NCBI GenBank assembly: GCA_023664385.1
Contig: JAMPFU010000023.1
Coordinates: forward strand, 1 to 45,263
Reading direction: 5' to 3'
From: Clostridium sp.
GTDB lineage: Bacteria; Bacillota; Clostridia; Lachnospirales; Lachnospiraceae
DNA: 45,263 nucleotides
The notes beneath the pieces were generated by a model, which saw only the letters and a list, made by a program, of their open reading frames with translations, had not been told where the DNA came from and made no database searches. Within the stretch, counting starts at the first letter, position 1. Each line of letters begins with the position of its first letter. The position numbers and the translations under genes were made by a program. This document shows, in pieces, positions 7,892 to 23,040 of the stretch.

Positions 7892-7907
7892 TTAAGAAAT
7901 AATTAAT
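7892..7907 (+). repeat. 16-bp direct repeat, left copy (candidate att core)
   Basis: TTAAGAAATAATTAAT occurs here and again, same orientation, at 23025-23040. The pair flanks the integrase-containing island. The sequence is AT-rich, so chance is possible; its support is the position outside the arm-type repeats on both sides. Confidence 0.45.
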
Positions 7908-8040: not shown

Positions 8041-8042
8041 AA

Positions 8043-9230
8043 TTAGACTTGTATTTTATCTATTTCATGGCGTAATTCAGCTAATGTTCTATGACCATAA
8101 ACAGATTTTTCCACATCGCCTTTTATTACGTGTCCCATAAGCATATGCTTTGAAAGGTCATCGACTTTGTATTTGTCACATAACCATGAAAATGTGTGGC
8201 GGCAGTCGTGCGGTGTATGTTTCTTTCCGTTTAAGGTTGTTTGTATGCCTAATTTTTCTAATGTAGGATAAAATACATTTTTTCTATAATCTGTTGATTT
8301 TACATAAAAGGGTTTACCTTTGTATGCTGCGACCATGTCATATATTGAATTGTGAATCGGGACTATTCTGTCTTTTCCGGCATTTGTTTTTACACCGCCT
8401 CGGAAATATCTGTCTTTTAAATTGTATTCCATACTTTCATATGCGCTGATACGGAAACCGGAGTAAATCATAATAAGTATTGTATCCACACCGGGCATAT
8501 CCTTATTCTTCCAAAGCAGAGTTAATTCTTCCTGAGAAAATGGTTCACCGCTTTCGTCGTCATCTTTTATATTGATGGTAACGAATTGGGAATAGTCCTT
8601 GTCCATGTAATCATTTTCTAGTGCAAATTTATATATGCCATGATACAAATTGATTATTAATTCTAAGCTGGAATGTTTTAGCGTACAATTATCAATAACC
8701 TCCTGTAAGTCTGCTTTTTTTAATTGCTTAAATTTTCTTTCGTGTAATACTGAGCAATTATTAAAGGTGGCTCTTACAGAATAGATTGAGGATTTGGAAA
8801 ATGTTTTTTTGCTGTTTTCATACTTAGATTTGTAATATAATCTATACATATCCGCAAAAGTTATATTTTCATTTTTTATGTCATATGGATTGTGATTATA
8901 TTCACGGAGTGCATCAAAAGCCTGATACCAATCTTCATAATATCCGATTGCAGGAACTGAGACAGGAGAACCGTTAATATTGTATTCTTGAGTTGGAGGA
9001 TATGCGGCATATGGATTTCGTCTGTTTTTGCCTAAATACTTTATGCTGCCATAACCGTTTGGAAGCTTTTTGTGTTTCTTTTTTCTTTTAGTATTGCCTT
9101 GTGGCTTCGCAGGAGCCTCAACGTGCTCTTTAAATTGGTTAAGTGATGAATTTATAGGGTAGCCGCAAGAAGGGCAGGATATAGCCTTATCTGATATATT
9201 GTGACCACATTCAGGACATGATATAAGCAT
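8043..9230 (-). CDS. Tyrosine integrase with N-terminal zinc ribbon
   Basis: The 395-aa protein opens with a four-cysteine zinc ribbon (CPECGH at 5-10, CPSCGYP at 19-25). A Lys-rich linker follows, then an AP2-like/SAM-like core-binding region (about 150-220) and a catalytic domain. Catalytic residues visible are Arg in SGFRISAYES, the HDCRHTF box (H-x-x-R), and HMLMGHV followed by the Tyr nucleophile in KSVYGHRT near the C-terminus. It should integrate and excise the island. The start follows AAGGAG by 9 nt. The stop codon lies within the left arm-type repeats, the usual position at an island end. The zinc ribbon is not part of the standard integrase. Confidence 0.85.
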   Translation of the reverse strand: MLISCPECGHNISDKAISCPSCGYPINSSLNQFKEHVEAPAKPQGNTKRKKKHKKLPNGYGSIKYLGKNRRNPYAAYPPTQEYNINGSPVSVPAIGYYEDWYQAFDALREYNHNPYDIKNENITFADMYRLYYKSKYENSKKTFSKSSIYSVRATFNNCSVLHERKFKQLKKADLQEVIDNCTLKHSSLELIINLYHGIYKFALENDYMDKDYSQFVTINIKDDDESGEPFSQEELTLLWKNKDMPGVDTILIMIYSGFRISAYESMEYNLKDRYFRGGVKTNAGKDRIVPIHNSIYDMVAAYKGKPFYVKSTDYRKNVFYPTLEKLGIQTTLNGKKHTPHDCRHTFSWLCDKYKVDDLSKHMLMGHVIKGDVEKSVYGHRTLAELRHEIDKIQV

Positions 9231-9299
9231 GGAAATATTCTCCTTGTATAAAAATTTTCATTTGCTTTATTTTCGTTTCAAGATTAATAGAGTTTAAAT

Positions 9300-10757
9300 T
9301 TATTGATTAACTGCACCCAGCCCTTTTAAAAAGAATGTCATTGTGTCAGTAGCTTTATCATAAATGATATAATCAATAACGGAATGGAGAGCTGTAGCAC
9401 GGTCAACTGTTACAGATGAGTTTTCTATGTAGTCATAGACGGACTGAAGCTTTTCAGTCGTAATCTGCACCGGTGCAATGTCCATTTTGTTATATTTGTC
9501 CTCAAGAACGGCCAGTTCATTTTCAAGCGTTGCTTTGTTTGACTTGTATTCCTTAAGAGTATCAACACCGTTTATATATGCATCTTTGACTCTTTTAAGC
9601 TTTTGTTTAACGGAAGATATTTGTTTTTCAATTGTTGCAGGTTCGGGCTGATATTGCGGTACAGGGTCAAGAGCGGCAATATCATTATTGTTAATGATTT
9701 CTTTAAGCCCCTCAAGTACATAATGTTCCGCTTTGACCGCAGATATGGAATTTCTGCAATTACACATGCCCTTGACCGACTTCCAGCAGACAAAATAAGG
9801 AAATTCACGGTTTTTTCGTTTATCATAGCCTCTTTGGTATGCAAGTGTTCCATCGCAGGCGGGGCATCTCATTACCCCTGACAGCCAGTGCTTTTGTATG
9901 CTCAGTCTTTTGGCGTGGCTTTGTGTGGCTGTAAGAAAGCTATACCGTTCATTTGCCTTATTCCACAGCTCTGTATCAATAATTGGTTCATGTCTGCCGT
10001 CAACTATAATCGTATCACCCGTAGTTTTTTTCGAGTGGTTGCCGGAATAATTCCATCTGATTTTTCCAATGTAAAAAGGATTTTGTATCATATCGACAAT
10101 GTTGCGTGATTCCCACTTGCATCCGCCTCTTGTTCTGTATCCGGTATTATTTATGTATGCTGCAATCTGCGACAGCGCTTTTTCTTCTATTGCAAACATA
10201 TGGAAGCACATACGGACCATATCAACATACTCAGTATCAGGATAAGGAATGGTATCGGCGCCTTTATCTTTTTTATATCCTATAGGTGGTCTATTGTTGT
10301 ATCCGCCGGAAAGCGCCTTCTGTGTCATGCCTCGTCGTACCTCTCCCGACAGGCGGATGGAGTAGTATTCATCCATCCATTCAAAGATACGCTCAACAAG
10401 CTGTCCGATAAATCCATCAGGAAGCGGCTCGGACACTGATACAACATCAACATTATTTTTCTTCAAAAGGGATTTATACACAATTGATTCTTCCTGATTA
10501 CGGGCAAACCTTGAAAATTTCCATACTAAAATAGCATCATAAGGATGTTCCTTTGACTTGGCGGTGGCAATCATATTTTGAAATTGGGGACGCTTTTCGG
10601 CAGTTCTTCCGGATATACCTAAATCCTGATATACATCCGTGAGAATCATATCGTTGTTTACTGCATATTCCTTTAGAAGCCTGATTTGGGCATCAGGTGA
10701 ATATTCTTCCTGATCCTCTGTTGAAACCCGGATATAGGCGCATACTATTTTTGACAT
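9300..10757 (-). CDS. Large serine recombinase
   Basis: The 485-aa protein starts at MSKIVCAYIRVSTEDQ, chosen because AGGAG lies 8 nt upstream (10766-10770); upstream codons in the same frame have no ribosome site. Ser12 in the RVS motif is the nucleophile, and KFSRFARN carries further active-site residues. A recombinase domain (about 165-270) is followed by a zinc ribbon (CPACDG then CxC) and a C-terminal coiled coil with a Lys/Glu-rich helix (about 410-455), the usual order for large serine integrases. It is the second recombinase in the island. It may belong to a nested or older element, or may act on the same ends. Confidence 0.85.
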   Translation of the reverse strand: MSKIVCAYIRVSTEDQEEYSPDAQIRLLKEYAVNNDMILTDVYQDLGISGRTAEKRPQFQNMIATAKSKEHPYDAILVWKFSRFARNQEESIVYKSLLKKNNVDVVSVSEPLPDGFIGQLVERIFEWMDEYYSIRLSGEVRRGMTQKALSGGYNNRPPIGYKKDKGADTIPYPDTEYVDMVRMCFHMFAIEEKALSQIAAYINNTGYRTRGGCKWESRNIVDMIQNPFYIGKIRWNYSGNHSKKTTGDTIIVDGRHEPIIDTELWNKANERYSFLTATQSHAKRLSIQKHWLSGVMRCPACDGTLAYQRGYDKRKNREFPYFVCWKSVKGMCNCRNSISAVKAEHYVLEGLKEIINNNDIAALDPVPQYQPEPATIEKQISSVKQKLKRVKDAYINGVDTLKEYKSNKATLENELAVLEDKYNKMDIAPVQITTEKLQSVYDYIENSSVTVDRATALHSVIDYIIYDKATDTMTFFLKGLGAVNQ

Positions 10758-10807
10758 ATACATCACTCCTATACAATTAAAATTCTTGTATAAAAGCATC
10801 CTGTTAT

Positions 10808-10919
10808 GATATAATATGCATGTTGGGGCTATTATATCAATAAAGGTGTGAGAGGTTGTGCTTTTATACTTTTTATTGAAGATAGCTTTGTGCTCCCTGT
10901 TGGCGCAGGGGGCATTTTT
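10808..10919 (+). ncRNA. Possible small plus-strand transcript opposite the recombinase leader
   Basis: TATAAT (10810-10815) on the plus strand has a weak -35 (TTGTAT) 18 nt upstream. About 70 nt further on a hairpin GCTCCCTG/CAGGGGGC (10892-10914) is followed by a T run, a good terminator for this strand only. The -10 sits in a perfect inverted repeat, GATATAATA (10808-10816) and TATTATATC (10830-10838). This would make a ~100-nt RNA reading away from the serine recombinase start. No coding potential is evident. Confidence 0.35.
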
Positions 10920-11977
10920 TATTTGAAACATCTTTTACAAGGCACAAATTGGTTTTGCTCGGCTTCTTCTTTTTCCAATTTGAGTGCGTCATGTAAACCA
11001 CTGCAGTGCGGAGTAGTATGGTATTTGTTGCTGTTTGGTGAAACAAATACATATTCTTTAGATACAATATTCATATTTAAAATTTGTCCTAAATAGGTAA
11101 CATCTTGTGGAAAACGGTTGCAATGTCTGTTCACTTCTTTATCCAAAACGCTTTTAAGTCTTTTGTATGGTGCCGGATATTTTAATAAACTAAGCAAGTA
11201 CAAAAATTGTCCTAATCCCGGTTCCATGGGTAGAATAATATTTGAAAGCTTGTCAACTCTTAATGTACTAGAACATTTATAATTATAGATTCTGCCTCCG
11301 TGTGCTGCTTTATTTCTGTAATCAACACAAATAAAGAGTGTATCCATCATAAGCATTCTTAAGGTGTTTATGCCAAATTCATCTTCGGACAAATCGTATA
11401 AAAGTCGGCATAAATTTTCTTGTTCAGGCACTTTAAATAATGATATAAAATTTACTATTGTTGAAAAATAAGCACTCTTAAGCAATATCCAAGGAGGAAC
11501 AGTACCATATTTTGTGGAATAGTGGTGTATAGGATACTTATCAGTTTGCAGCATATCTCTTAATGTTGTCAAAATATAGCCTAAACTGAAACGCTTTTTT
11601 GTTTTTTTCTTATCTCTAAAGTTTTTGAAATTCAAATATTCATCTTGGTGTGTTCCGAATGTTTTTGCAAGAACATCAGCAGTGCTTTCTTTAATATGTT
11701 CTTCTAAATCCTGCATTGCTGCCATCATTGCATTTCTTAATGCTTTGTCCAACAAGTATAGTGATTCAATTTGGTTAAAAGTTACGCCGGAACGATATGA
11801 TTTTTCATTACCGTTAGTTACTACATATGGTTCTCTATAACTCTTTATTAAATTTGAGTACCCATATATTTGAAGTTTGCGTTTAGCATTTTCTTCATCT
11901 TCAATGATTAGGTTTTGTTTTTTCAGTTTGATTATTTGTTGTTCAGGTGTGGTATAATTAATTGGAATGCTTGTCAT
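10919..11977 (-). CDS. Abi_2 (AbiD/AbiF-type) HEPN protein with C-terminal zinc tail
   Basis: The 352-aa protein matches the Abi_2 family of abortive-infection proteins. The HEPN RNase motif DYRNKAAHGG (R-N-x3-H) lies near residues 217-225; the N-terminal region TTPEQQIIKLKKQNLII is also typical. After residue about 310 comes a short Ada-like metal site (YHTTPHCSGL, then PCKRC at the end) that the core family lacks. The start is fixed by AGGAGG 10 nt upstream. HEPN proteins of this family cleave RNA and arrest growth. An independent 62-nt transcription unit with terminator lies directly upstream on the same strand, as in RNA-antitoxin systems. It probably serves phage defence or island stability. 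Confidence 0.8.
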   Translation of the reverse strand: MTSIPINYTTPEQQIIKLKKQNLIIEDEENAKRKLQIYGYSNLIKSYREPYVVTNGNEKSYRSGVTFNQIESLYLLDKALRNAMMAAMQDLEEHIKESTADVLAKTFGTHQDEYLNFKNFRDKKKTKKRFSLGYILTTLRDMLQTDKYPIHHYSTKYGTVPPWILLKSAYFSTIVNFISLFKVPEQENLCRLLYDLSEDEFGINTLRMLMMDTLFICVDYRNKAAHGGRIYNYKCSSTLRVDKLSNIILPMEPGLGQFLYLLSLLKYPAPYKRLKSVLDKEVNRHCNRFPQDVTYLGQILNMNIVSKEYVFVSPNSNKYHTTPHCSGLHDALKLEKEEAEQNQFVPCKRCFK

Positions 11978-12001
11978 ATGTACATTTCCTCCTATTTAAA
12001 C

Positions 12002-12063
12002 AAAAAGAGCCAAGGAAAAATCCAAGGCTCAATTCGTGGCCGGACACCAGCCATTCACTAATT
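12002..12063 (-). ncRNA. abiF-like RNA, candidate RNA antitoxin or attenuator
   Basis: Transcription from the promoter at 12070-12098 would start near 12063 and stop at the terminator 12007-12030 (GAGCC/GGCTC hairpin followed by U5), giving about 62 nt. A central hairpin GGCUGG/CCGGCC with a UGU loop maps to 12038-12052, and AAUU at the 5' end can pair with AAUU at 12031-12034. The Abi_2 gene starts 25 nt past the terminator, so its mRNA would arise by readthrough. Small structured RNAs (the abiF motif) are known upstream of Abi genes, and RNA antitoxins for AbiF have been reported. Assignment to that Rfam family was not tested. Confidence 0.65.
12007..12030 (-). terminator. Terminator between abiF-like RNA and Abi gene
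   Basis: On the minus strand GAGCC...GGCTC forms a five-pair stem with an inner GG/CC, followed by TTTTTG. It lies between the upstream promoter and the Abi_2 ribosome site, so it sets the ratio of RNA to mRNA. Confidence 0.75.
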
Positions 12064-12098
12064 AGTGATATTATAACTATATGCAGAAACCTTGTCAA
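12055..12098 (-). promoter_or_regulatory. Consensus promoter and palindromic operator of the abiF-like RNA
   Basis: The minus strand has TTGACA (12093-12098), a 17-nt spacer and TATAAT (12070-12075), a full sigma-A consensus. A perfect 14-bp palindrome, TCACTAATTAGTGA (12055-12068), covers the predicted start site. It could bind a repressor or form the 5' hairpin of the RNA. Confidence 0.85.
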
Positions 12099-12205
12099 GT
12101 ATTCATCATGAAAAAATTTATTTATAATGTTTTTGAATATATATATTATCACAAAATACTTTTTTCAGGTCAGCATTGAGCCTAATGATTTTTCTATTTT
12201 ATATG

Positions 12206-12706
12206 CTAAGATACTTCTGATTTTCCCCCCGATGCGGATTCTCTTTGCTTTTCATCCGCATATATTTGTTGTCCGTTTTCGTTTAAATATTGGACGACGT
12301 CAAAGTTTTCTGTACTCTCAGCAGCATCCACGTTTTTATCGGACATGAGTTTATCAAATACTCTTTCCACATCTTTCCAATCTTCATCACTCAGTTTTGC
12401 TAAACCTTCAACCAGCCTTGTTTTAAATGATTCAGGTTCTATTGCAATTTTCTTTGTGAAATCTTCCATGGCTTGTTTTCGGGATTGGTTTACAGAACAA
12501 ATATCTCCTTCTTCATATCTGAGCCATTTCTCGCTTATATTAAATTCCCGGCAGATTAATTTAATAACTGTATCGCTTATAGTATTTTTGTCATTTTCCC
12601 ATTGACTGACCGTGTTTTTTTTAGCTCCTAATTTTTCCCCGAATTTTTCAAGAGTAAGACCAACCGTTTCAGTTCTTATATATTTAACTCGTTCGCCTAT
12701 AGTCAT
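12206..12706 (-). CDS. XRE/CI-like repressor of the island switch
   Basis: The 166-aa protein starts at MTIGERVKYIR, after GGGAGGTG; the longer frame to 12757 crosses that ribosome site. Residues 5-60 form a helix-turn-helix (LTLEKFGEKLGAKKNTVSQWE). The rest is an acidic helical tail without a peptidase motif, so it is not a LexA-type self-cleaving repressor. It is transcribed away from the early genes through a promoter interleaved with three 15-bp operators (12766-12832). It most likely represses both promoters and controls island excision or early genes. Confidence 0.78.
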   Translation of the reverse strand: MTIGERVKYIRTETVGLTLEKFGEKLGAKKNTVSQWENDKNTISDTVIKLICREFNISEKWLRYEEGDICSVNQSRKQAMEDFTKKIAIEPESFKTRLVEGLAKLSDEDWKDVERVFDKLMSDKNVDAAESTENFDVVQYLNENGQQIYADEKQRESASGGKSEVS

Positions 12707-12728
12707 AATTGCACCTCCCATCTTGTAA

Positions 12729-12757
12729 ACAATAACACTTGATAAACTTAATGTCAA
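12729..12757 (-). promoter_or_regulatory. Promoter of the XRE repressor
   Basis: On the minus strand TTGACA (12752-12757) is followed after 17 nt by TATTGT (12729-12734). It lies 9 bp from operator O1, so the repressor probably regulates itself. Confidence 0.6.
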
Positions 12758-12765
12758 TAAAAAAA

Positions 12766-12832
12766 GTTCTTATAAAGAACAAAAATGCTTGACAATATTC
12801 TTTGTAAGAATTACAATGTTCGCATAAAGAAC
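12766..12832. promoter_or_regulatory. Three 15-bp operators O1-O3 and early promoter
   Basis: O1 GTTCTTATAAAGAAC (12766-12780) is a perfect palindrome. O2 ATTCTTTGTAAGAAT (12797-12811) is perfect and fills the spacer of the rightward promoter. O3 GTTCGCATAAAGAAC (12818-12832) has one changed half. Centres are 31 and 21 bp apart, close to three and two helical turns. The plus-strand promoter is TTGACA (12789-12794), a 17-nt spacer and TACAAT (12812-12817). Binding at O2 and O3 would block it directly. Confidence 0.82.
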
Positions 12833-12873
12833 AAGTCGACATGGAATTTAAGTTATTGAAAGGAGATGGTCAC

Positions 12874-13044
12874 ATGTCAGATAAAGAAAAAGATTTTATT
12901 AAGAAAATAGAATCAGGTGTGCCGTATTTATCAGATTTTGATAAAGGATATTTTCTCGGTATTGTCGAGTCAAAGGCAAACTCAAATATGGATAAGGCAG
13001 TAGAAGAAAGAAATTTAAGCAGGGAGAGCACAAAGCAGTTATAG
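12874..13044 (+). CDS. Small early island protein, unknown
   Basis: This 56-aa protein starts at MSDKEKDF after AAAGGAGATGG (the upstream ATG at 12841 has no site). It is highly charged and helical, with a central LSDFDKGYFLGIVESKA segment seen in many small phage and island early proteins. It is the first gene behind the repressible rightward promoter. Function is unknown. Confidence 0.55.
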   Translation: MSDKEKDFIKKIESGVPYLSDFDKGYFLGIVESKANSNMDKAVEERNLSRESTKQL

Positions 13045-13096
13045 CCCCAACACACTTTAACTGCAGGTGAATAAAAGGATTACAGGAGGTGGTAGC

Positions 13097-13273
13097 ATGA
13101 CTTACGAATATTATATCGAAAAAGATGGAGAATATGTCGATTTAAAAACACTACCGCTGGAGGAACAGGCAGAAATACGAAAAAGATTATCAGAGACAAT
13201 GGCAACGACAATAGCAAAGAACATAGCAAGACAGAGGGGAAAAGAGATAAGTAATAACGCACTGATGAAATGA
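13097..13273 (+). CDS. Small island protein, unknown
   Basis: This 58-aa protein starts at MTYEYY after ACAGGAGGTGG. Its C-terminal half is a basic helix (ETMATTIAKNIARQRGKE). It has no recognised domain. It belongs to the same operon as its neighbours, judged by short gaps and strong ribosome sites. Confidence 0.55.
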   Translation: MTYEYYIEKDGEYVDLKTLPLEEQAEIRKRLSETMATTIAKNIARQRGKEISNNALMK

Positions 13274-13323
13274 ACATTGAGACAGTTTGCATTATCAAAA
13301 TTTTATAGCAGGAGGTAATTGAA

Positions 13324-13713
13324 ATGATTGAAGAAATTTTATTAAAAATTGAAAAATACTATGGATTTAAAAAGGAATTAATAAGGAATGTACAAATGGA
13401 TGGACCATTGTTTGTAAATTTTGAAGTTAATGGAATTATGTATAGCGGTTATGTACCGTTTGTCGGAGCCATACCTCAGTTGACAGTAAATGGGTATACG
13501 GCAAAACATCACAATGAAAAGGATGTGCTTGTGGAAGACTGGTACTACGAGAAATATATCAAGGATAAGCCAGTACGACTTCTTCGTTATATGGCTGTAG
13601 ATGAAAACGATGAGGCAAAGTGGGAGGACACAGGCGTCATATTAAAAAACCAGGAGGATGCAGAAAAATACATAAATAGTCTGCAGTTACATTATGAAAT
13701 AATAATTGATTAA
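13324..13713 (+). CDS. Island protein of 129 aa, unknown
   Basis: The start follows AGGAGGTAATTGAA. The protein is a mix of short strands and charged helices (IMYSGYVPFVGAIPQLTV, then RLLRYMAVDENDEAKWED). There is no signal, membrane segment or catalytic motif, and I do not recognise the family. It is part of the early operon. Confidence 0.5.
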   Translation: MIEEILLKIEKYYGFKKELIRNVQMDGPLFVNFEVNGIMYSGYVPFVGAIPQLTVNGYTAKHHNEKDVLVEDWYYEKYIKDKPVRLLRYMAVDENDEAKWEDTGVILKNQEDAEKYINSLQLHYEIIID

Positions 13714-13739
13714 TTATGCTAAAAGGAGGATGTGGTTTA

Positions 13740-14018
13740 GTGAATAAGGAAACTGAAAGAATTTCAGTAGAGGAAGCTGCAAGGCTTCTCGGAATGGCAC
13801 CGCAGGGAGTAAGGGTTCAGATGAGACGTGGGCTTCTTGACATTGGTAAGGTATTTCCTTCTGTCAGCCATAAAAAAGGAGGCAGGACAATATATCAATA
13901 TTTTATTTTCAGGGATAAATTAAATAAGGTGCTTGGAAAAAACAATGACGGGGAAGAAGTAAGCTGGACTAATGAAAACAGACGACAAGAGAGCATCCAT
14001 GAAATTAAAAACAAGTGA
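13740..14018 (+). CDS. Excisionase-like helix-turn-helix protein
   Basis: The 92-aa protein starts at GTG 13740, after AAAGGAGGATG. Its N-terminus, RISVEEAARLLGMAPQGVRV, is a MerR/Xis-type winged helix. A wing-like KKGGRTIYQYFIFRDKL follows. Such proteins act as excisionases or early regulators in prophages and conjugative elements; here it could direct the tyrosine integrase toward excision. The next gene overlaps its end. Confidence 0.65.
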   Translation: MNKETERISVEEAARLLGMAPQGVRVQMRRGLLDIGKVFPSVSHKKGGRTIYQYFIFRDKLNKVLGKNNDGEEVSWTNENRRQESIHEIKNK

Positions 14019-14559
14019 TATTGAGGACTGCCTCCAAAATCATGGGAGGTTAAGAAAAATATACATAGCAGCAAGGAAAAACATAACAGAGCAGCTGTAC
14101 GGACTGGACGAGCTTGAAAAGACCATCTATATCCCGATGCGATGTACCTCAGACGGAAACCGGAAATTTTACACATCGGACAAAACCGGAAATACCGTCA
14201 AATCCAACGAAGCAGAAAAATTGAGCGCAGAACGGAATTTCCTGACACAGCAACTAAAAGCCTATGATGATAAAATTGCAATGGTGAACAGGGTCGTTAA
14301 TACGTTCAACAGCCTTGCATTTATATTTCCGCACCATTTTGATATTATTAACCGTCTGTGGATCAAACGGGAAAAAGTGGCGTCAGCCCGTTCCGAAATC
14401 GGGCTTGGAATGACGACCATAAACAATATGCGCATGGACTTTGTTAGGGTAATCACATGCATTGTAAATTCAGATTTAACTATATCAGACATGAGCGATA
14501 TTGAAAAAATAAGAAGTGCAGTAAATGATGATGAACTCATCAGCAACATGAGGAGGTAA
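13972..14559 (+). CDS. Phage-type regulator with coiled coil and HTH-like end
   Basis: The frame opens at ATG 13972, overlapping the previous gene; the ATG at 13999 (after AGAGAG) is an alternative, giving 186 aa. The N-terminal half is helical (KIYIAARKNITEQLYGLDELEK). The region INRLWIKREKVASARSEIGLGMTTINNMR looks like the sigma-region-4/ArpU-style HTH of phage late regulators. A role in switching on later island genes is inferred. Confidence 0.45.
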   Translation: MKTDDKRASMKLKTSDIEDCLQNHGRLRKIYIAARKNITEQLYGLDELEKTIYIPMRCTSDGNRKFYTSDKTGNTVKSNEAEKLSAERNFLTQQLKAYDDKIAMVNRVVNTFNSLAFIFPHHFDIINRLWIKREKVASARSEIGLGMTTINNMRMDFVRVITCIVNSDLTISDMSDIEKIRSAVNDDELISNMRR

Positions 14560-14564
14560 TCCAT

Positions 14565-14933
14565 ATGAAAGAGTACAAATACAAACAGTATAAAATTTAT
14601 ATTCCCACCAGTAATACGAAACTCATCGAGATATTGGACAGTTATTCCACGTATATGAGGGATAAGGTTATTATTGACACGCTTCGGAAAGCTCTTGCAC
14701 TAGATGGGAATAGTGTTTCCAGTCATAAAAGAATTGAAAAAAATCCGGAAGAATATGAGCAGGAAGCCATCGGACGACACAATAATGACGAGATACTTAA
14801 AATGCTTGCGACTCTTACTGAAAAAATTGAGGCACTGGAACACAGAGAAGCTGCAGGAGTAAAAGAAGATATGGGACAGAAACCGATGCTGGATGTTCCG
14901 GATGAAATGCTTGATTTTTTTGCCGACGATTGA
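14565..14933 (+). CDS. Small ribbon-helix-helix-like protein with coiled coil
   Basis: This 122-aa protein begins after AGGAGGTAATCC. Residues 9-48 (YKIYIPTSNTKLIEILDSY, then VIIDTLRKALAL) have the strand-helix-helix look of RHH DNA-binding proteins such as ParR- or Arc-like factors. Residues 75-100 are a coiled coil, and the end is acidic. A nearby A-rich, ~10-bp-spaced repeat field (15092-15160) could be a binding region. It is the last gene of the early operon, closed by a strong terminator. Function is not proven. Confidence 0.45.
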   Translation: MKEYKYKQYKIYIPTSNTKLIEILDSYSTYMRDKVIIDTLRKALALDGNSVSSHKRIEKNPEEYEQEAIGRHNNDEILKMLATLTEKIEALEHREAAGVKEDMGQKPMLDVPDEMLDFFADD

Positions 14934-14949
14934 TTAATCGGGACAAAAT

Positions 14950-14981
14950 AAAAGAGAGGAAACCAACACTTCCTCTCTTTT
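14950..14981 (+). terminator. Strong terminator of early operon
   Basis: AAAAGAGAGGAA (14950-14961) pairs perfectly with TTCCTCTCTTTT (14970-14981). The arms supply both A and T runs, so it works in either direction. Confidence 0.9.
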
Positions 14982-14982
14982 G

Positions 14983-15077
14983 CATGTGCACTTGAAATTA
15001 ACTATACAAGACACAAATAATATGTAAAATGTGTCTTATATATTATCGTTATTTTCAAAATATGTCAAGTGCATATG
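14983..15077. repeat. Nested inverted repeats in a 95-bp AT-rich segment
   Basis: An outer pair CATGTGCACTTGA (14983-14995) and TCAAGTGCATATG (15065-15077) matches with one G-T. It encloses an inner pair AAGACACA (15008-15015) and TGTGTCTT (15030-15037). It lies between the terminator and the large RNA locus. It may be an operator, a replication or processing site; none is proven. From 15092 to 15160 the sequence is A-rich with repeated GTACAAA/GCAAAA words and no gene. Confidence 0.5.
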
Positions 15078-15159
15078 TAAAAATATTCAGTACAAAAAAT
15101 CAAAAAAAGTACAAATTTGCAGAAACAGCCAAAAAACATGCAAAATTGTACAAAACACA

Positions 15160-15963
15160 ATTAAAGTCTGAAAGCATCAAGTGATGAGAGGAACGCAAAG
15201 ACATAAATGGCGGTGTAAGATAACCTGAGGACACTTACATATCACTATAAAATAACCTTTTCGCATGTTGGTATAAACAATTAACCTGAGGGAATAGCTG
15301 ACCCTTTGGCTGCGGAGCAATCCCGGTTAAAGCGCAGAGGAACAACTGCGTCAAATGACGCAAGAGAAAGGGCTGTATATCAATTTATACAGGTAACCCG
15401 TCCCGGATGCTGCTTTCATATGCCTGTAGTGGGTGTATGGAAGCAGAAGGGGGGAGTATCAAGGAAATTAGCTGCCACGTCGTCTGATGCCGGACCTCGG
15501 ACGTTAGCATGATACATGCTTGAAGATACTTTCTGACTAAATACATATATTGGAACATAAACGGCTTCACATTACTGTGAGTGGTTTCTGTATATGTTTT
15601 TAGTCAGGGGGGGAGAATTGAAAATTAATAAATAAAGGAAAATGTGCAGCTAAAGAAAAACGAGAATAAGTCGTTACCTGTAGTATTCGATTTTCAATTC
15701 ACGGGGTTGCCTCTGCGGAGTGGTATATTAAAAAATACATATTATATTTAAACTTCGTAAAAAACTTGATATATAAATTATAATCTCGGTAACGAGAGTA
15801 ACGCCAGTAATTTGGTATCGGGTTCCAAGATATTTTATATATGTTATTATTATAATGGAATGTGATAATGGCAATTGCCGTGGTTGCATTCATTGTTATC
15901 TCCCCTCCTTACATTTTTAGAATAAGAGCGGAAAGGACATGCTTTTGGGTATGTCCTTTTTTG
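15160..15963 (+). ncRNA. Large ornate noncoding RNA (GOLLD/ROOL-like candidate)
   Basis: No plausible gene covers this 800-nt stretch, but it is full of strong stems. They include TTAACC..GGGA with TCCC..GGTTAA (15281-15330), CTGTATA/TATACAG (15373-15392), CTGCTTTCATA/TATGGAAGCAG (15410-15446) and a 16-nt pair with one mismatch (15533-15548 with 15592-15607). Others are an 11-bp perfect pair (15615-15625 with 15690-15700), a GUAA tetraloop hairpin (15785-15796) and a long-range G-rich/C-rich pair (15607-15616 with 15899-15908). CCCTTT in a loop (15302-15307) can pair with AAAGGG (15367-15372), a pseudoknot. It ends at a terminator. The 5' end is approximate. Size and mobile-element setting fit GOLLD or ROOL RNAs; the class was not tested. 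Confidence 0.65.
15932..15963 (+). terminator. Terminator of the large RNA
   Basis: AAAGGACAT (15932-15940) pairs with ATGTCCTTT (15951-15959) and a T run follows. It closes the structured RNA locus before the surface-protein genes. Confidence 0.88.
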
Positions 15964-16067
15964 CATTATACAAATTTCATGTAGCTATCATTAATAACAC
16001 TGCAGTTGAAATTACAGAGGAAAAGTGCAATAATATATAGAAATATTGAAAAAAATAAATTTGTTGC

Positions 16068-16096
16068 TTGACAAATACACACGCATAATGTATAAT
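16068..16096 (+). promoter_or_regulatory. Consensus promoter of the surface-protein genes
   Basis: TTGACA (16068-16073), a 17-nt spacer and TATAAT (16091-16096): a full consensus promoter 50 nt before the first surface gene, implying strong constitutive transcription unless repressed. Confidence 0.9.
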
Positions 16097-16146
16097 ATAC
16101 TTAGATAGGAAAGGCAGTATTTTTAGAAGCAGAGGGGGAGACGGAT

Positions 16147-16848
16147 ATGGATAAGAAGAAAAAGGTAATAATAATCACAATAGCAGCATTGTTTCTCGCA
16201 GGAATTACAACTACGGCGATAATCATGGGAACAAGGGATAAAAAGGAAAGCAGTGTAAAGGCTGAAACGACAGAAGCCATGGCAGTTGCAGATAAAAAAG
16301 AAGCTGACGATGATATGCCTGAGGTTAAGGCTGACACCAAAGAAACAAAGGAAAATGACACAAAAAAGACGGATGCAAAGAAGGACACCCAAGAGGAAAA
16401 GGCTGAAAAGGACACTGTTAAAAGCGAGGTTACGGAAGCTGCCAATGCCAAGCCGAATGTAACAGAAGCACCAAAACAGACAGAACAGTCGACGACAACG
16501 GAAACACCGAAGCAGACAGAACAGCCAAAACAGACGGAAACACAAACAGAACAGCCTGCTCCTGCAACAACCGAAAAGCAGAAAGTATGGCATGAGCCCG
16601 TATATGAGGAAGTATGGGTAGTGGATGTGGAGGCACACTATGAGAGGATGCCTGTTGATGTAAAGTACATAGACCAGTGCTACTGTGGAGCTGACATAAC
16701 AAATATTGACTTTAGAGACCATGTAAACACAACACCTCAATGTGTAGGCTTTTGGGGAGATGTGCCAGTATATACCTACGATGACGTGTTTGTAGCTGAA
16801 CAGGGGCATTACGAGAAAAAGCTTGTAAAGGAAGGCTATTGGGAATAA
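16147..16848 (+). CDS. Membrane-anchored protein with Lys/Glu/Thr stalk and Cys-His C-terminal domain
   Basis: The 233-aa protein has one N-terminal membrane segment (about 7-27). A low-complexity stalk (28-145) rich in K, E, T and with EAPKQTEQ-type repeats would span the wall. The C-terminal domain has paired strands (EEVWVVDVEAHYERMPV, then EQGHYEKKLVKEGYWE) around QCYCGADI...HVNTTPQC, a likely zinc or disulfide site. The start follows GAGGGGGAGA. The domain recurs in hypothetical surface proteins of Firmicutes; function is unknown. It heads a cassette with the large adhesin downstream. Confidence 0.6.
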   Translation: MDKKKKVIIITIAALFLAGITTTAIIMGTRDKKESSVKAETTEAMAVADKKEADDDMPEVKADTKETKENDTKKTDAKKDTQEEKAEKDTVKSEVTEAANAKPNVTEAPKQTEQSTTTETPKQTEQPKQTETQTEQPAPATTEKQKVWHEPVYEEVWVVDVEAHYERMPVDVKYIDQCYCGADITNIDFRDHVNTTPQCVGFWGDVPVYTYDDVFVAEQGHYEKKLVKEGYWE

Positions 16849-16893
16849 AACCAAGACCTGAAGGAATGAAGTAAAATTTAATAAAAACAACAA

Positions 16894-16982
16894 AAGCAGG
16901 AAGGGTAAAACCGACTTGCTTTTTTTATGCCATAGATTAAGGGCGGATAAGGGATTTTTTTCTTTTATCTGCCTTTTCTTAT
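16894..16982 (+). terminator. Two hairpins between the surface genes
   Basis: A weak hairpin with a seven-T run (about 16894-16927) is followed by a stronger one, GGCGGATAA (16942-16950) with TTATCTGCC (16965-16973) and TTTTC. Transcription into the adhesin gene therefore depends on readthrough or on a promoter I cannot see. Confidence 0.6.
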
Positions 16983-17010
16983 TCTAAAACGTAAAGGAGG
17001 AATGTAAAAA

Positions 17011-20000
17011 ATGAATAAGAAAAAGAGAAAAAAGCAGGAGGAAATAATAATGAACAGGAAAATCAAAAAAACAGTAGCACTTCTTATGTCGCTGATTATG
17101 ATTTTTTTCGCATTCAATGCAATGCCTGTTTCAACTGCAAATGCAGAAGAAATATCAGAACAACAGGAAAGTGCTGCAGGAAATGCAACTGCTACGGACG
17201 CAGAACTGACAGAGGTCAATGAGATGTCAACGGAGGCTGGTACCGAGGCTGTAGAGGAAACATGTGAGAGTACGGAAGATGCAACAGTAAATGTAATAGA
17301 GCAGATGGAGGAAATCGTGGAGGAAATCATGGTTTACGCTACGGTTGACACAAACTATACGTTTATTTTTACTGATGGGGGAAGCTTAAACGCCGTGTGC
17401 GAAAATGAGCATCTTCCTGTGGTCGCCCATACGTCCGGCGGAAATCAGCTTCACTGTATAGACGCAAGCCTGTCATCAGCTTTTCAATGGACAAACTATG
17501 GGTGGCAGTCAGGAGGTCTTACATGGTCATATGCCGAAGTCGGAAACAGCAGCATGGCAGATGTTTTGTTTGAGTATTATAAGGGAGATAACCCAAACCG
17601 TGCCGTGACAGATGGTGAAAAGTCGGGTGGTACAGGTTCCTTATATAATCAGCTTACCCATGACCTTGACGGTGCAGAGGGAGGCACACGTACAGCTCCC
17701 ACAAAGGCAGCCTATAAAATTGTAAATGCATCAAATGCTGATATAAACGGGCAGACGATAAATGCGACCGTTGACACTGCAAATAATATTCAGAAAACCG
17801 AAACGCTTACGTTTCTCACAGGAACAACATATCTGCATCATTATGTTACCGTTCCCGCAGGCGTCACGATGCATTACACGCCTTATGACACGGGAGTTCC
17901 GGCAACGGCAACAAACACAACCGTTGCGGTTGTGAATAATACAAAAGCATATTTCACAGCACCACTCACGACAAATATAAGTGTAAGCATTTCAAGCACA
18001 TGTGTAAATCGTGATTTCAATAAAGGTTATTATATTGGCAACATGTATATACTTGCACCACAGAAACAATTAGGCAGTGCTGTGACTTTACAAAGATTTA
18101 TGTACTGTGACGGAAGTCCTGCATCAGCATCATTTTCAATTAACTTTGCCGCTCTTGGAAGCCTGAAAATACAGAAAATTTCAGCAAATCCGGATATAAC
18201 TGACGGAAATGACTGCTATTCCCTTGAGGGAGCAGAGTTTCTTGTCCCAAATGCGGACAAATCAAAGAGCTGGACGCTGACAACGAAGGCTGATGGAACG
18301 GCACAGCTTGATAACATTCCTGTCGGCAGCTATACAATAAAGGAAACAAAGGCATCAAAGGGGTATACAATTAACCCTGCAGGATTTAATGGTACTGTAA
18401 CAACCACTCATACGCCACAAGCTCCTTATATAGTAGAAGTTGGGGAAACACCTAAAAACGATCCTATTGAAATGTTAGTACAGAAAAAATCTTTAGATGG
18501 TGATTATGAGGGAAAGTATCTTGAGGATGCAGAATTTACGGTTAAATTTTATAAGGGAGTGCAGCAAGGCACTAATCCTGCACTTGACGGAATGACAGCC
18601 GATAGAATTTGGGTTCTTAAAACAGTATTGAATCCTAAAAATAATGATGTATGTGCTTTGTTGGATGAATTGAGTAAAATTTCTGGTGACGATTTTTATC
18701 GGACAAGAAGCGGAAAACCAACCCTTCCTCTTGGCACGATAACCATACAGGAAACCAAAGCGCCTGACGGATACCTTGTTGATGACGAAGTATACGTCAG
18801 AACAATAACGGACGACGGAGGGGCACTTGAAGCAGTAGACACCTACAACATGCCTTTGATAATCGAAGAACCAAACAAGCGTCCCGTACAGTTTATAAAG
18901 CTTGGCGAGGACCATGACGGAAATGCAAATCCGCTTGCAAATGCAGGCTTTAAGGTATGCCGTACCGAAGATCTGCAAAAGGACGCTGATGGAAACTACA
19001 TATGGGACGAAAGCAAAGCTGTTTCTTTTGCAAAGGATAAGGGCACTGAGCTTTTTACCGACCAGCTGGGAAATGCCGAAAGCTGTCCGCTTTTCTATGG
19101 GGACTACATGATGAGGGAGACTACCGTTCCCGACAACCATGCTGCCGTTCCTGACTTTTTCTTTACCGTGGACGATGACTCAACGGAGCCGGTTGTGCTT
19201 GGAAGCTTTACTGACAGGCAGATTTATTCTTATCTGAAGCTGATAAAGGCAGACAGCGAAACTGGAAAGAACATCACAGCCTCACATGCCGTATTCAAGG
19301 TGTGGGACTATGCCGGCGGGGAGTATGTGTCCTTTGACGGCGTTTCGGAATTTGAGACGGACGATGACGGAGTGCTTTTTCTTCCGGGCAGGCTTGCAGC
19401 AGGCAGATACAGGCTTGAGGAAATAAAATGTCCTGACGGTTATTATGCCGCATCAGCAGATACTGACATTACAATAACAAATGCAAAGGGTGCGCTTTAT
19501 GAGGCATATGTTGACGAAAATGGAAATGCCACTGATGACATCCTCACGACAGCAGCCATTTACAATGAACAGCTTAAGGGCATCATAACAATAGACAAAA
19601 CTGCCGAAAAGCGGAGCTGGGACGAAGAAAAAGGAGATTTTGTCAGCAGCGACATAAAGCTTTCGGACGTAGAATTTGGAATATATGCGGCAGAGGATAT
19701 TTATTCCCCTGACGGAAACGGAACGCTTTTATATTCAGAGGGAGACAAGGCATGCACCGTAATAACCGATGAAAATGGTTCTGCCGAAAGTACGGAGCTT
19801 CCGCTCGGCAGGTATCAGGTTGTCGAGGAAAAAACGCCTGCAGGATATAAACCTTCGGAACCGCAGACCGTTAAGATTGCATTTGATGATAAAGCAGTTG
19901 AGATTACGGAAGCAGAAAGGACAAAGAAACTGATATATAAGAATGTTGATGTGTACAACTACGCAAAAATTCCGAAAATCAGGACTGCGGCAAAGGATGT

Positions 20001-22026
20001 AAATACAAATTCGCCAGTCGGTTCATGCAGTGAGTCTGCACAGATAGAGGACACTGTTTCCTATGATGACCTTATTCCGGGACGTGAATATGAGCTTTTT
20101 GGAAAGGTTATGCTTCAAAGTACGGGACTGCCTCTCTGTGACATGAATGGAAATGAAGTAAGAAGCAGCCTGAAATTTACGCCTGAGAGCGAGAGCGGAG
20201 AGGTAAAGCTTAAGTATACATTTGACAGCAGGCTTCTTGCCGGACAGACGGTTGTTGTTTTTGAGGATCTGTATTGTGACGGAGAAAAGGCTGCCGTCCA
20301 TGCTGACATTGAGGACGAAAAACAGAGCATTTATTTCCCTAAGATAAGAACACTTGCCGTCTCGGAAAACGGCACAAAGGCGCATATTGCATATGGAATG
20401 CTTCACATAACCGATACATGCTCTTATGAGAATGTCGTGCCGGGATATTGGTACAGGGTAAACGGCATTTTAATGAACCGTGCAACAAAGGCGCCGCTCC
20501 TTGATGATGACGGCTGCATAGTAACGGCAGAAACGTATTTTTATGCGGATAAAAGCAGCGGAACGGTTGATGTTTCCTATGATGTCGATGTTACGTGGAT
20601 GCCGGGCTATTACATTGTTGTTTTTGAAGAACTGCATTTTGCCGAAACAGGAGCAAAAATAGCGGAACATGCTGACATTGAGGATGAAAACCAGACCATA
20701 AAAATAAAGGAGCGGGGCTGGCTCGTTCTGCACGGCGCACAGTCTCCTTCAGGGCGTGCATGGCACAGCAAAAACTACAGCCCGGGAACAGGCGACAGCG
20801 TAAATACAAAGGCGGCTGCCGTTGTGGGAATGCTTGCGCTTATTCTTGGTGCTGCAATGTTGTTGGTTAAAAGAAAGAAAAACAGAAAGAAAGAACCGGA
20901 GGTAATTGTGGTAGGACAAAAAGGAACAGGAAAAAGGCTGTTTGTGCTAAGCCTTTTTGCCGGATTATCGTTTGGTTTATGCGGGAATACGGCACATGCA
21001 GAGGAAATGCAGGAAGACGAATATGTAGTGACAAAAACAGAAACCTGCGATACCGGTGACGAGTCAAAATACGATTTCGGCTTTGACGATGAAATTATTA
21101 CGGCTGACGGAATAAGCTATAAGCTGGATCATATTGACTATGATAAAACAAGCGTTTATGAAAGCGTGTACGGAGAGGAGGGAGTACAGACTGAAATTAC
21201 CAAAGAGAAGGAAAAAATAAAAAATGTGGACAAGGAAAGCTTCAAGCCTGAAGAAACATTTTCTGAAAATGACATGGAGTATGTTTTCAAAGACGTAAAA
21301 TTTGAACAAAGCGGATATGCAGATGAAAATGCAGTAAAGACGCTTGATACGGACGTGCTGCAAGCATTAAATGTTAATGAATATCCGAAAAGCCTCGAAT
21401 ATGAATATGACGGGGAAAAATATGACCTGCCGTATTCAAAATACGAGGAAAAGACGGGCTGGTACTCAGGGTTTAAGCTGACCGGGACAATTTACGGTTA
21501 TGACGGAGGCAGCTTTAATATCGGGGATAATGCATTGACGGACGAGCAGCTTAATGACACGGATATTTTAAAAATATTTATGAGGGAAAACGGATATGGG
21601 GCTGATATTTACAGACCAACATCATTTGAGTATGCATCAGAACCGTATGTGTCAGTTTCGGGAAAGGTATGCAGGGACTATATCATAAATTATGACCTGT
21701 ATGGAACAGTCTACACGCTTATTTATGAAAAAAAGCTTGATGCACCGCTTTATAAGGCAGTGATGACGTATGAATTAAGCGATGACAGCACGAAAAAGCT
21801 TGAGGAAATGAAGGAAAGCTATATCGTAACCGCAAATGCATATTATGTTGAGACGGAAGGAGAAAAAGGGCTTACGGCAGTGCAGAAAGCTGTTCTTGGA
21901 GCAGGAATTGTTTTTCTTATCATACTCTTTATTGCACTTGTGATTTATCTTTTGAAAGGGGGAAGAAAGCCGACGGATTACAAATCTGAAAGGGACATAA
22001 GAAGGGACTATAAGGAACTTAAATAG
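17011..22026 (+). CDS. CnaB/VaFE surface adhesin fused in frame to a second membrane protein
   Basis: The 1,671-aa frame starts after AAAGGAGGAATG; a second ATG at 17050 also has AGGAGG and begins the signal peptide proper (cleavage near residue 45). Residues about 115-380 are an unassigned N-terminal domain. CnaB/SpaA-type repeats start near 383, 485, 625, 741 and 857, with ETKAPDGY-like ends. Two VaFE repeats (989-1230) carry VVFEDLY and VVFEELH. At 1258-1294 lies a sorting-signal-like SPGTGDS, a hydrophobic segment and RKKNRKK, without LPXTG. The frame then continues into another signal peptide (about 1308-1332, ending AHAEE), an extracellular region and a C-terminal membrane segment (1628-1649). 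GGAGG then GTG at 20908, in frame, suggests separate translation of the second part. No sortase is present. Confidence 0.8.
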   Translation: MNKKKRKKQEEIIMNRKIKKTVALLMSLIMIFFAFNAMPVSTANAEEISEQQESAAGNATATDAELTEVNEMSTEAGTEAVEETCESTEDATVNVIEQMEEIVEEIMVYATVDTNYTFIFTDGGSLNAVCENEHLPVVAHTSGGNQLHCIDASLSSAFQWTNYGWQSGGLTWSYAEVGNSSMADVLFEYYKGDNPNRAVTDGEKSGGTGSLYNQLTHDLDGAEGGTRTAPTKAAYKIVNASNADINGQTINATVDTANNIQKTETLTFLTGTTYLHHYVTVPAGVTMHYTPYDTGVPATATNTTVAVVNNTKAYFTAPLTTNISVSISSTCVNRDFNKGYYIGNMYILAPQKQLGSAVTLQRFMYCDGSPASASFSINFAALGSLKIQKISANPDITDGNDCYSLEGAEFLVPNADKSKSWTLTTKADGTAQLDNIPVGSYTIKETKASKGYTINPAGFNGTVTTTHTPQAPYIVEVGETPKNDPIEMLVQKKSLDGDYEGKYLEDAEFTVKFYKGVQQGTNPALDGMTADRIWVLKTVLNPKNNDVCALLDELSKISGDDFYRTRSGKPTLPLGTITIQETKAPDGYLVDDEVYVRTITDDGGALEAVDTYNMPLIIEEPNKRPVQFIKLGEDHDGNANPLANAGFKVCRTEDLQKDADGNYIWDESKAVSFAKDKGTELFTDQLGNAESCPLFYGDYMMRETTVPDNHAAVPDFFFTVDDDSTEPVVLGSFTDRQIYSYLKLIKADSETGKNITASHAVFKVWDYAGGEYVSFDGVSEFETDDDGVLFLPGRLAAGRYRLEEIKCPDGYYAASADTDITITNAKGALYEAYVDENGNATDDILTTAAIYNEQLKGIITIDKTAEKRSWDEEKGDFVSSDIKLSDVEFGIYAAEDIYSPDGNGTLLYSEGDKACTVITDENGSAESTELPLGRYQVVEEKTPAGYKPSEPQTVKIAFDDKAVEITEAERTKKLIYKNVDVYNYAKIPKIRTAAKDVNTNSPVGSCSESAQIEDTVSYDDLIPGREYELFGKVMLQSTGLPLCDMNGNEVRSSLKFTPESESGEVKLKYTFDSRLLAGQTVVVFEDLYCDGEKAAVHADIEDEKQSIYFPKIRTLAVSENGTKAHIAYGMLHITDTCSYENVVPGYWYRVNGILMNRATKAPLLDDDGCIVTAETYFYADKSSGTVDVSYDVDVTWMPGYYIVVFEELHFAETGAKIAEHADIEDENQTIKIKERGWLVLHGAQSPSGRAWHSKNYSPGTGDSVNTKAAAVVGMLALILGAAMLLVKRKKNRKKEPEVIVVGQKGTGKRLFVLSLFAGLSFGLCGNTAHAEEMQEDEYVVTKTETCDTGDESKYDFGFDDEIITADGISYKLDHIDYDKTSVYESVYGEEGVQTEITKEKEKIKNVDKESFKPEETFSENDMEYVFKDVKFEQSGYADENAVKTLDTDVLQALNVNEYPKSLEYEYDGEKYDLPYSKYEEKTGWYSGFKLTGTIYGYDGGSFNIGDNALTDEQLNDTDILKIFMRENGYGADIYRPTSFEYASEPYVSVSGKVCRDYIINYDLYGTVYTLIYEKKLDAPLYKAVMTYELSDDSTKKLEEMKESYIVTANAYYVETEGEKGLTAVQKAVLGAGIVFLIILFIALVIYLLKGGRKPTDYKSERDIRRDYKELK

Positions 22027-22028
22027 AA

Positions 22029-22060
22029 ATCTTGACGGTGTCAGTCAGGATTTTTTTGTT
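22029..22060 (+). terminator. Terminator after the adhesin
   Basis: TCTTGAC and GTCAGGA pair (one G-T), followed by seven T residues, directly behind the adhesin stop. Confidence 0.65.
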
Positions 22061-22070
22061 ATAATAATTA

Positions 22071-22113
22071 ATGGGATGTCACAGGCAAATGCCTATGGCA
22101 TCCCATTTTTTTT
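22071..22113 (+). terminator. Second, stronger terminator
   Basis: ATGGGATG (22071-22078) pairs with CATCCCAT (22099-22106), with an inner AGGCA/TGCCT, and eight T residues follow. Confidence 0.88.
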
Positions 22114-22151
22114 ATGCTCATAATGGGCGAATATTGATGATGAGTTTATGA

Positions 22152-22286
22152 CGTTATACCGACATCGGTCTAAATGATATTTGTAGCAGCAGACAGGAAA
22201 AAGATTTTAATGTTTTGAGTATGAAAACTGAGGCTGATGATAACAACATTTTACGTGATAACAAAAGGACAACTTTGCATATCTGA
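22152..22286 (+). pseudogene. Possible gene relic, unrecognised
   Basis: A 44-codon frame without start codon or ribosome site reads like real protein (DICSSRQEKDFNVLSMKTEADDNN is hydrophilic and varied). It lies just before the oriT-like segment. It may be the end of a lost mobilization or plasmid gene; I cannot name it. Confidence 0.2.
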
Positions 22287-22333
22287 AGAAATTTTTTATT
22301 GTCTTTTGCGAGGGTTATTGAATACGGGGTCTT

Positions 22334-22429
22334 AGGGGTGTCCCCTAGCAAGATGTGTTTTGAATGAACGAAGTGATATACAAAATACGTGTCTTGCTAA
22401 CTTATGAAATAAGTTAGCAAGACACGTAT
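22334..22429. other. oriT-like hairpin region
   Basis: A small hairpin AGGGG/CCCCT (22334-22346) is followed by CTAGCAAGATGTGTTTTG and its imperfect inverse at 22381-22398. Next comes a perfect 21-bp hairpin with a GAA loop (arms 22385-22405 and 22409-22429). Clustered alternative hairpins beside a mobC remnant resemble a transfer origin. There is no relaxase in the window, so use would require one in trans. Confidence 0.45.
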
Positions 22430-22481
22430 CATACATATTGTGTGCCATAAAGATATATTAGCATTAATTGGTCATGCTAAG

Positions 22482-22800: not shown

Positions 22801-22907
22801 AACCATACGACAGTGAGGAATTTAAAAGGTTTATGTGCATCCTTGCAGTCTACGGCAACAATCTTAATCAGATAGCCCATAGGATGAACATGGAAATAAT
22901 TGGATAA
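22797..22907 (+). pseudogene. mobC remnant (relaxosome accessory protein)
   Basis: An open stretch ends with EEFKRFMCILAVYGNNLNQIAHRMN and a stop at 22905-22907. YGNNLNQIA is the hallmark of MobC mobilization proteins. The N-terminal two thirds and the usual C-terminal helix are absent, replaced upstream by the repeat field. It shows that the island, or part of it, derives from a mobilizable element. Confidence 0.65.
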
Positions 22908-22955
22908 AAAATATAACATTGCTAAGATACAATAAAATATCATAAAATATATACA

Positions 22956-23024: not shown

Positions 23025-23040
23025 TTAAGAAATAATTAAT
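23025..23040 (+). repeat. 16-bp direct repeat, right copy (candidate att core)
   Basis: TTAAGAAATAATTAAT repeats the sequence at 7892-7907. It lies outside the right arm-type repeats, before the conserved LCP gene. Between it and 23178 I see only AT-rich leader. Confidence 0.45.

Follow-up and report, generated by a model that had tools for sequence, protein, structure and literature searches.

Positions 15160-15963 of the window (the whole 45,263-nucleotide stretch of Clostridium sp. DNA that was analysed, to which all coordinates refer) probably form an independent gene for a large structured RNA that lies outside the Rfam families and would most likely act in trans as a scaffold. The stretch is located in a mobile island, contains no long ORFs, has an excess of predicted structure and matches no known RNA family. 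That it is a real RNA gene is, in our judgement, likely, although transcription and the biological fold are both things that we infer. The first-pass annotation had read the same stretch as an ornate noncoding RNA of ~800 nt, either a member of the GOLLD or ROOL families or a new class: its reading as a candidate for a large structured RNA located in a mobile island has stood up to analysis; membership of GOLLD, ROOL or OLE is not supported.

The island and its genes

The island setting proposed by the first-pass annotation is borne out by comparison with related genomes. The island (~15.1 kb, 7892-23040) is a precise insertion with attachment-like repeats: relatives carry an empty site, and a 16-bp repeat, TTAAGAAATAATTAAT, is present at both ends. 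The window contains exactly two copies of this sequence, at 7892 and 23025, whereas the uninterrupted sites of loci L046 and L047 have one each. In genomes G001 and G036 the match to the window stops at 7907 and 7914, respectively, and restarts at 23025, with an overlap of 16-23 bp on the relative's side. Both island flanks are found no more than ~260 bp apart in G034, and also in two more distant genomes, G021 and G028. The main features of the island are as follows.

7892..7907, no strand: left attachment-like repeat TTAAGAAATAATTAAT, one of the two window copies
8043..9230, minus strand: tyrosine (Xer-like) recombinase with N-terminal zinc ribbon (Pfam zinc ribbon; phrog_1 integrase, 7e-24)
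9300..10931, minus strand: large serine recombinase (Pfam Resolvase and Recombinase; CcrB-like, under cut-off)
10919..11977, minus strand: Abi_2 (AbiD/AbiF-type) protein (Pfam Abi_2, 3.4e-29; PADLOC AbiD, 2.4e-35)
12206..12757, minus strand: Cro/C1-type repressor (Pfam HTH_3)
13716..14018, plus strand: excisionase-like small protein (phrog_6058, 6.7e-12; phrog_2655 excisionase, 0.0013)
14565..14933, plus strand: small unknown protein directly 5' of the RNA (ORF)
15160..15963, plus strand: candidate large structured RNA (fold statistics, no ORF, no plus-strand Rfam match; 5' end approximate)
17011..22026, plus strand: SpaA/VaFE-repeat surface protein, island cargo (second gene past the promoter match)
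23025..23040, no strand: right attachment-like repeat TTAAGAAATAATTAAT, found once in the uninterrupted sites of L046 and L047

The insert comprises the two recombinases (tyrosine and large serine), the Abi_2 gene, the Cro-type repressor and the excisionase-like protein, together with small unknown proteins, the candidate RNA and the SpaA/VaFE surface protein. NCBIfam Xer models match the tyrosine recombinase (8043..9230, minus strand) under their cut-off, and the excisionase-like protein (13716..14018) matches the excisionase of Blautia phage Montmirail at 3e-5. The protein encoded at 14565..14933 gave no Pfam family, no phage match and one NCBIfam model far under its cut-off. No phage structural gene was recognised among the island proteins scanned (11 with Pfam, 6 with PHROGs; these sets leave out the smallest ORFs), nor is there a tRNA in the island, the only tRNA of the window being located outside it at 30061-30149. 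The candidate RNA sits in the island interior, far from the attachment-like repeats at the ends.

Upstream of the Abi_2 gene (10919-11977), positions 12008-12098 on the minus strand contain TTGACA-17-TATAAT followed by the hairpin GGCTGGTGTCCGGCC, and in the same element a GAGCC/GGCTC hairpin with a T run next to it stands ahead of the ribosome site. The element resembles a short RNA that precedes an AbiF gene in C. difficile (PMC12373285); neither the abiF nor the RAGATH-18 model was listed for it at E ≤ 10.

Folding statistics and strand

In agreement with the claim of a gene-free stretch, no ORF of at least 70 amino acids with an ATG, GTG or TTG start is present in 14934-16100 (1.17 kb), and the longest frames touching the RNA when read from stop to stop are of 75 amino acids on the plus strand and 72 on the minus strand. 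The MFE of 15160-15963 on the plus strand is -241.9 kcal/mol, compared to a mean of -195.5 (sd 7.1) for 100 dinucleotide shuffles, none of which folded to as low an energy. Expressed as z, this is -6.4 with 20 shuffles and -5.7 with 60, a z-score by itself being no proof of an RNA gene. The first-pass annotation counted more than ten stems; there are 16 confident helices (at least 6 pairs, mean probability at least 0.7) containing 143 pairs, against shuffle means of 8.9 helices and 67 pairs and maxima, in 100 shuffles, of 15 and 119. The longest uninterrupted helix, of 16 bp, was reached by one shuffle in 100, and the number of helices of at least 7 bp, 14, was equalled by three in 100, leaving energy, confident-helix count and confident-pair count as the three of five measures that lie beyond every shuffle.

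The tile of the RNA has a z of -6.0 to -6.4, the mean for 54 other 804-nt plus-strand tiles being -1.4 (sd 1.8). Counting against the candidate, two of the 54 are equally extreme, at 29632 (z -9.1), which includes tRNA-Ser, and at 30436 (z -6.2). The tiles around the tRNA-Ser (29601-30435) fold very strongly; in this region locus L049 has ~4.2 kb extra between its matches to 29995 and 30057, and L046 has a short inverted match at 29899-29964. When folded alone, the two halves of the candidate RNA are weaker (15160-15540, z -3.1; 15541-15963, z -4.0), with none of 60 shuffles as low in either case. Among 224 tiles of 400 nt, the plus-strand tile 15201-15600 is outside the 14 lowest.

The plus strand is modestly favoured (z -5.7 versus -4.4 with 60 shuffles; MFE -241.9 versus -188.7). 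Since the minus strand too beats all 60 of its shuffles, the strand bias is a modest one. G-U pairs make up 39 of the 250 pairs in the whole MFE structure and four of the 16 in the hairpin 15410-15446, and are seen in eight of the nine helices counted, the helix strand 15188-15202 having none. Such pairs are as expected for RNA, unlike DNA palindromes.

Predicted architecture

The predicted fold of the candidate RNA can be divided into two multi-branched domains separated by a long hairpin and followed by a terminator.

15188..15498, plus strand: 5' domain, closed by 15188-15202/15482-15498 (MFE, pair probabilities)
15535..15605, plus strand: central long hairpin of 19 + 9 pairs (p 0.84-0.85)
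15606..15909, plus strand: 3' domain, closed by a G/C-rich pair (MFE, pair probabilities)
15930..15963, plus strand: terminator hairpin and U run (p 0.94; sequence)

Four well-supported hairpins, including the 16-pair hairpin 15410-15446, are predicted inside the 5' domain, whilst the arms of the 3' domain comprise 15615-15700, 15714-15759, 15763-15824 and 15852-15896. At the tip of the third of these is the GNRA-type hairpin pointed out previously (15784-15797, UCUCG-GUAA-CGAGA, p 0.98). Another loop of the GNRA type, GCAA, is found at 15317-15320. The long-range G/C-rich pairing described between 15607-15616 and 15899-15908 also holds, with all ten positions able to pair and one of them G-U; in the MFE structure it takes the variant form 15606-15614/15901-15909 (p 0.77).

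The pseudoknot noted as likely between 15302-15307 and 15367-15372 fared less well. The two strands (CCCUUU and AAAGGG) are complementary, but the 5' strand is also part of a predicted helix, 15298-15316/15321-15337, with p 0.82. A conformer containing the pseudoknot and an alternative helix (UUAACC/GGUUAA) has an energy of -236.9 plus -5.9, with no pseudoknot penalty, as against -241.9. The pseudoknot is possible, and the model places it in a tie with the competing helix, from which it is indistinguishable by energy.

Two G-rich strands, 15449-15459 (GGGGGGAGTAT) and 15608-15618 (GGGGGGAGAAT), are near-identical (direct repeat D7), a kind of repeat that G runs make fairly easy to obtain by chance. 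The C-rich strand 15899-15908 can pair with either, through ten contiguous pairs with 15608-15618 or eight with 15449-15459.

Transcript ends

The strong terminator noted at the end of the stretch is well supported, with stem strands 15930-15943/15948-15961 running into a U run. It was omitted by the consensus terminator scan, an omission that is probably explained by the overlap of the stem with the U tract. The 3' end of the RNA lies ~180 bases ahead of the gene at 16147. A perfect (12/12) promoter match at 16068-16096 stands 5' of the downstream genes (16147 onward), which should accordingly have a start of their own.

The 5' end is less clear-cut. Scanning both strands of 14900-16200 for promoters gave nine sites, compared to 5.6 ± 2.8 in shuffles; none of these has a suitable position directly ahead of 15160. 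Two promoter-like sites, 14992-15021 and 15003-15030, would place the start near 15028-15037. As a 5' end of the transcript, 15160 is only approximate, the sequence by itself not defining that end. Past the upstream gene, a hairpin at 14950-14981 was listed as a minus-strand terminator; read on the plus strand, the stem finishes with TTTT and then GC, and judged by eye the hairpin may terminate the upstream operon as well. Nested inverted repeats, 14978-14998/15062-15082 and 15003-15015/15030-15042, are also present in the interval separating this gene from the RNA (14950-15082), and three copies of GTACAAA (15090, 15109 and 15148), possibly operator sites, are located ahead of the RNA.

Comparison with known RNA families

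The first-pass annotation's suggestion that the RNA might belong to GOLLD or ROOL is not supported, and we see no sign of membership of OLE either. When the 1251 bases from 14900 to 16150 were compared with Rfam by cmscan, at E ≤ 10 as well as at gathering thresholds, five families were listed at E ≤ 10, none of them on the plus strand of 15160-15963 and none of them ROOL, GOLLD, OLE or a group I or group II intron. The OLE and intron models were presumably present in the Rfam library used. On the minus strand, three families overlap the end of the RNA; their E values of 1.9 to 4.9 leave them far short of the gathering thresholds, and they were set aside as chance matches.

The search for ROOL (RF03087, gathering 99.1 bits) has a positive control: among 61 genomes, two congeners contain ROOL over the full model, G010 with 307 bits and G031 with 271 bits, so a ROOL RNA at the present locus should have shown. 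There was no match in the source genome, G000, at E ≤ 0.1 with stricter filters. The congener loci L051 and L052 are full-length ROOL RNAs, the former adjoining two tRNA genes. They have in common with the candidate RNA only short, mostly A+T-rich, chance-like pieces. ROOL resembles the candidate in being large, with an ornate predicted fold, in a gene-free stretch and in a mobile-element setting, but measures 604 and 613 nt in the congeners against ~804 here, and is often found near tRNA islands in prophages or phages, whereas the present island has no tRNA and, among the proteins scanned, no recognised phage structural gene.

The search for GOLLD (RF02032, the conserved 3' region) is one without a positive control, as GOLLD reached no more than 16.9 bits in 37 genomes, with none above the cut-off; the best match in G000, of 11 bits, is on another contig. 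GOLLD is similar in its mobile-element setting and its size, many members exceeding 800 nt according to PMC12286853, but differs in that no model match, no tRNA and, among the proteins scanned, no structural phage gene was recognised in this island. OLE, likewise long and ornate, was searched for without a positive control. We found no report of the candidate RNA in the literature searched.

Searches for homologues

The search for relatives of the RNA yielded the source genome and short pieces elsewhere. Plasmids and phages, searched by blastn with 15100-16000 as the query, contained no match at E ≤ 0.01, and the 5' part gave four phage records at E ≤ 10, all short pieces with E 5. Searches at the DNA level matched three of 61 relatives and 29 of 397 genomes of the family (E ≤ 0.01), the source genome being included in each case, and the 5' part matched only its own genome among 392 of the order (E ≤ 1e-4); the two family samples and the order sample overlap, so that these numbers are not additive. 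The 31 non-self loci (L002-L032) are short, mostly A+T-rich pieces, and in 28 of them the match falls in an ORF of at least 40 amino acids, though not all such ORFs need be genes. On reading, no locus had a further matching piece at the order and distance expected, and they were rejected as homologues; this re-reading left out one match from the 397-genome search. Five short exact patterns were found in 0, 1, 3, 1 and 0 stretches of IMG/VR. These loci (L071-L075) were also rejected, having only the pattern itself in common and looking coding by eye; L072 and L074 each have one further piece, weak and short. When a covariance model was built for 15282-15450 from the single sequence entered twice, it found only itself in a family sample of 397 genomes (stricter filters) and in 26 sources. 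The fold is accordingly an energy-based prediction, as no homologue was found in which covariation could be sought.

The neighbouring proteins were no more informative. P0001, P0002 and P0004 have no relative in IMG/VR, P0001 was found only in its own genome among 397, and no relative was seen for P0001 and P0002 in phages or for P0001 in plasmids; P0004 matched six phage records. Relatives of the two recombinases were used to locate related elements. The serine recombinase gave 18 loci. The tyrosine recombinase gave 18 non-self matches from which 16 stretches were fetched, two matches with a contig start <1 kb upstream being omitted; six of the 16 are under 7 kb, at contig ends, and show the island interior only in part. 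In the serine-recombinase set, blastn of the RNA found two pieces of 18-19 nt (L053 and L055) and in the tyrosine-recombinase set none at E ≤ 0.1. Scanning 14 of 34 recombinase-relative loci with Rfam revealed one TPP riboswitch and one RAGATH-18 RNA, the latter at L055:4761-4827, where the element also encodes a relative of the serine recombinase.

In these related elements 36 ORF-free gaps of at least 400 nt were folded (the first 700 nt at most, eight shuffles each). Strongly folding gaps are found, for instance, in L060, L061 (3465-3910, 7035-7569 and 8497-9107), L068, L108 and L115 (11985-12413), and it is possible that one of them contains a large RNA. Two others, L062:6357-7882 and L064:6688-8008, were discarded as counterparts, appearing by eye to consist of small genes and terminators. 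Three ORF-free stretches beside related integrases (L102:1503-2013, L103:1-424 and L104:14799-15265) show very strong, near strand-symmetric folding, with z from -8 to -22 (eight shuffles), and are perhaps recombination sites.

Alternative explanations

Mobile islands do carry DNA-level structures such as origins, transfer or recombination sites and clustered palindromes, and the near strand-symmetric gaps adjoining integrases in L102, L103 and L104, as well as the folding of the minus strand of the candidate stretch (z -4.4), would be in keeping with a structure of this kind and no RNA gene. We consider this unlikely given the G-U pairs in most long helices, the plus-strand bias, the 800-nt length and the 3' terminator, and the attachment-like repeats, being at either end of the island, are distant from the RNA. 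There is quite a small chance that the stretch is decayed DNA or noncoding filler that is stable merely by accident: it is single copy with no conservation seen and two of 54 other tiles have a similar z, but it surpasses all 100 shuffles in energy, in confident-helix count and in confident-pair count. The GNRA hairpins would also fit an intron of group I or group II, which might be permuted or lack an ORF, or the remnant of another catalytic RNA, and ORF-less group II introns are typically of the size of the candidate RNA. This reading is nevertheless highly improbable, as no intron model was listed at E ≤ 10, no domain V-like hairpin could be seen by eye and no recognisable gene is interrupted.

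A very divergent ROOL, GOLLD or OLE member overlooked by the Rfam models would agree with the size, the mobile-element setting and the presence of ROOL in two congeners. That none was listed at E ≤ 10 on 1251 bases even though the ROOLs of congeners score 271-307 bits over the full model, that GOLLD stays at or below 16.9 bits in 37 genomes with the 11-bit match of the source genome on another contig, that only short, mostly A+T-rich pieces are shared with L051 and L052 and that the island lacks a tRNA together make it very unlikely. Finally, the RNA might be a regulatory leader or an antitoxin for a neighbour, either the surface-protein operon or the Abi_2 toxin, given the ~180 bases to the gene at 16147 and the existence of RNA antitoxins for AbiF (PMC12373285). 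To this too we give a low probability: the terminator at 15930-15961 and the 12/12 promoter at 16068-16096 stand between the RNA and the gene at 16147, and the Abi_2 gene is ~3 kb away on the opposite strand. The antitoxin reading was dropped because the Abi_2 gene has a short promoter-hairpin element of its own upstream.

A proposed scaffold RNA in a mobile island

We favour the reading of 15160-15963 as the gene of a large structured noncoding RNA of ~0.8 kb that would form its own transcription unit, ending at 15930-15961. Its 5' multi-branched domain, central hairpin and 3' multi-branched domain would make up a scaffold acting in trans, assembled either with its own copies, as in ROOL and GOLLD, or with protein. 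By analogy, an RNA kept by a mobile island would do its scaffolding during the active phase of the island. In favour of the RNA gene we count the occurrence of ROOL and GOLLD likewise in mobile elements (prophages and phages). In PMC12286853 these two RNAs, from phages and prophages, are described as forming RNA-only cages and OLE as a dimer, and GOLLD expression is reported to go up during lysis of phage-infected cells; the same paper treats as open the question of whether large RNAs commonly form cages. Self-assembly of the ROOL or GOLLD kind is a tentative suggestion for the candidate RNA, made by analogy, and one that we doubt somewhat more than we believe.

The lack of family matches fits a new class, represented here by a single sequence with an energy-based predicted fold, and even as a single sequence the RNA is a good candidate for a new large structured RNA family. 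Going further, the C-rich strand of one molecule could close the domain of its neighbour, making this a new ornate mobile-element RNA family that self-assembles by strand exchange; the model allows such a scheme, which we think fairly unlikely to be correct. If it were true, the combination of strand exchange and the isoenergetic pseudoknot conformer would make the RNA a monomer or oligomer able to switch, in contrast to ROOL and GOLLD.

Few very large structured bacterial RNAs are known. OLE, ROOL and GOLLD are presented as RNA-only assemblies with poorly understood functions (PMC12286853). A large RNA that is unrelated to these and resides in an island where no phage structural genes are recognised would be an independent case to test, and such RNAs would be shown to occur outside all curated families.
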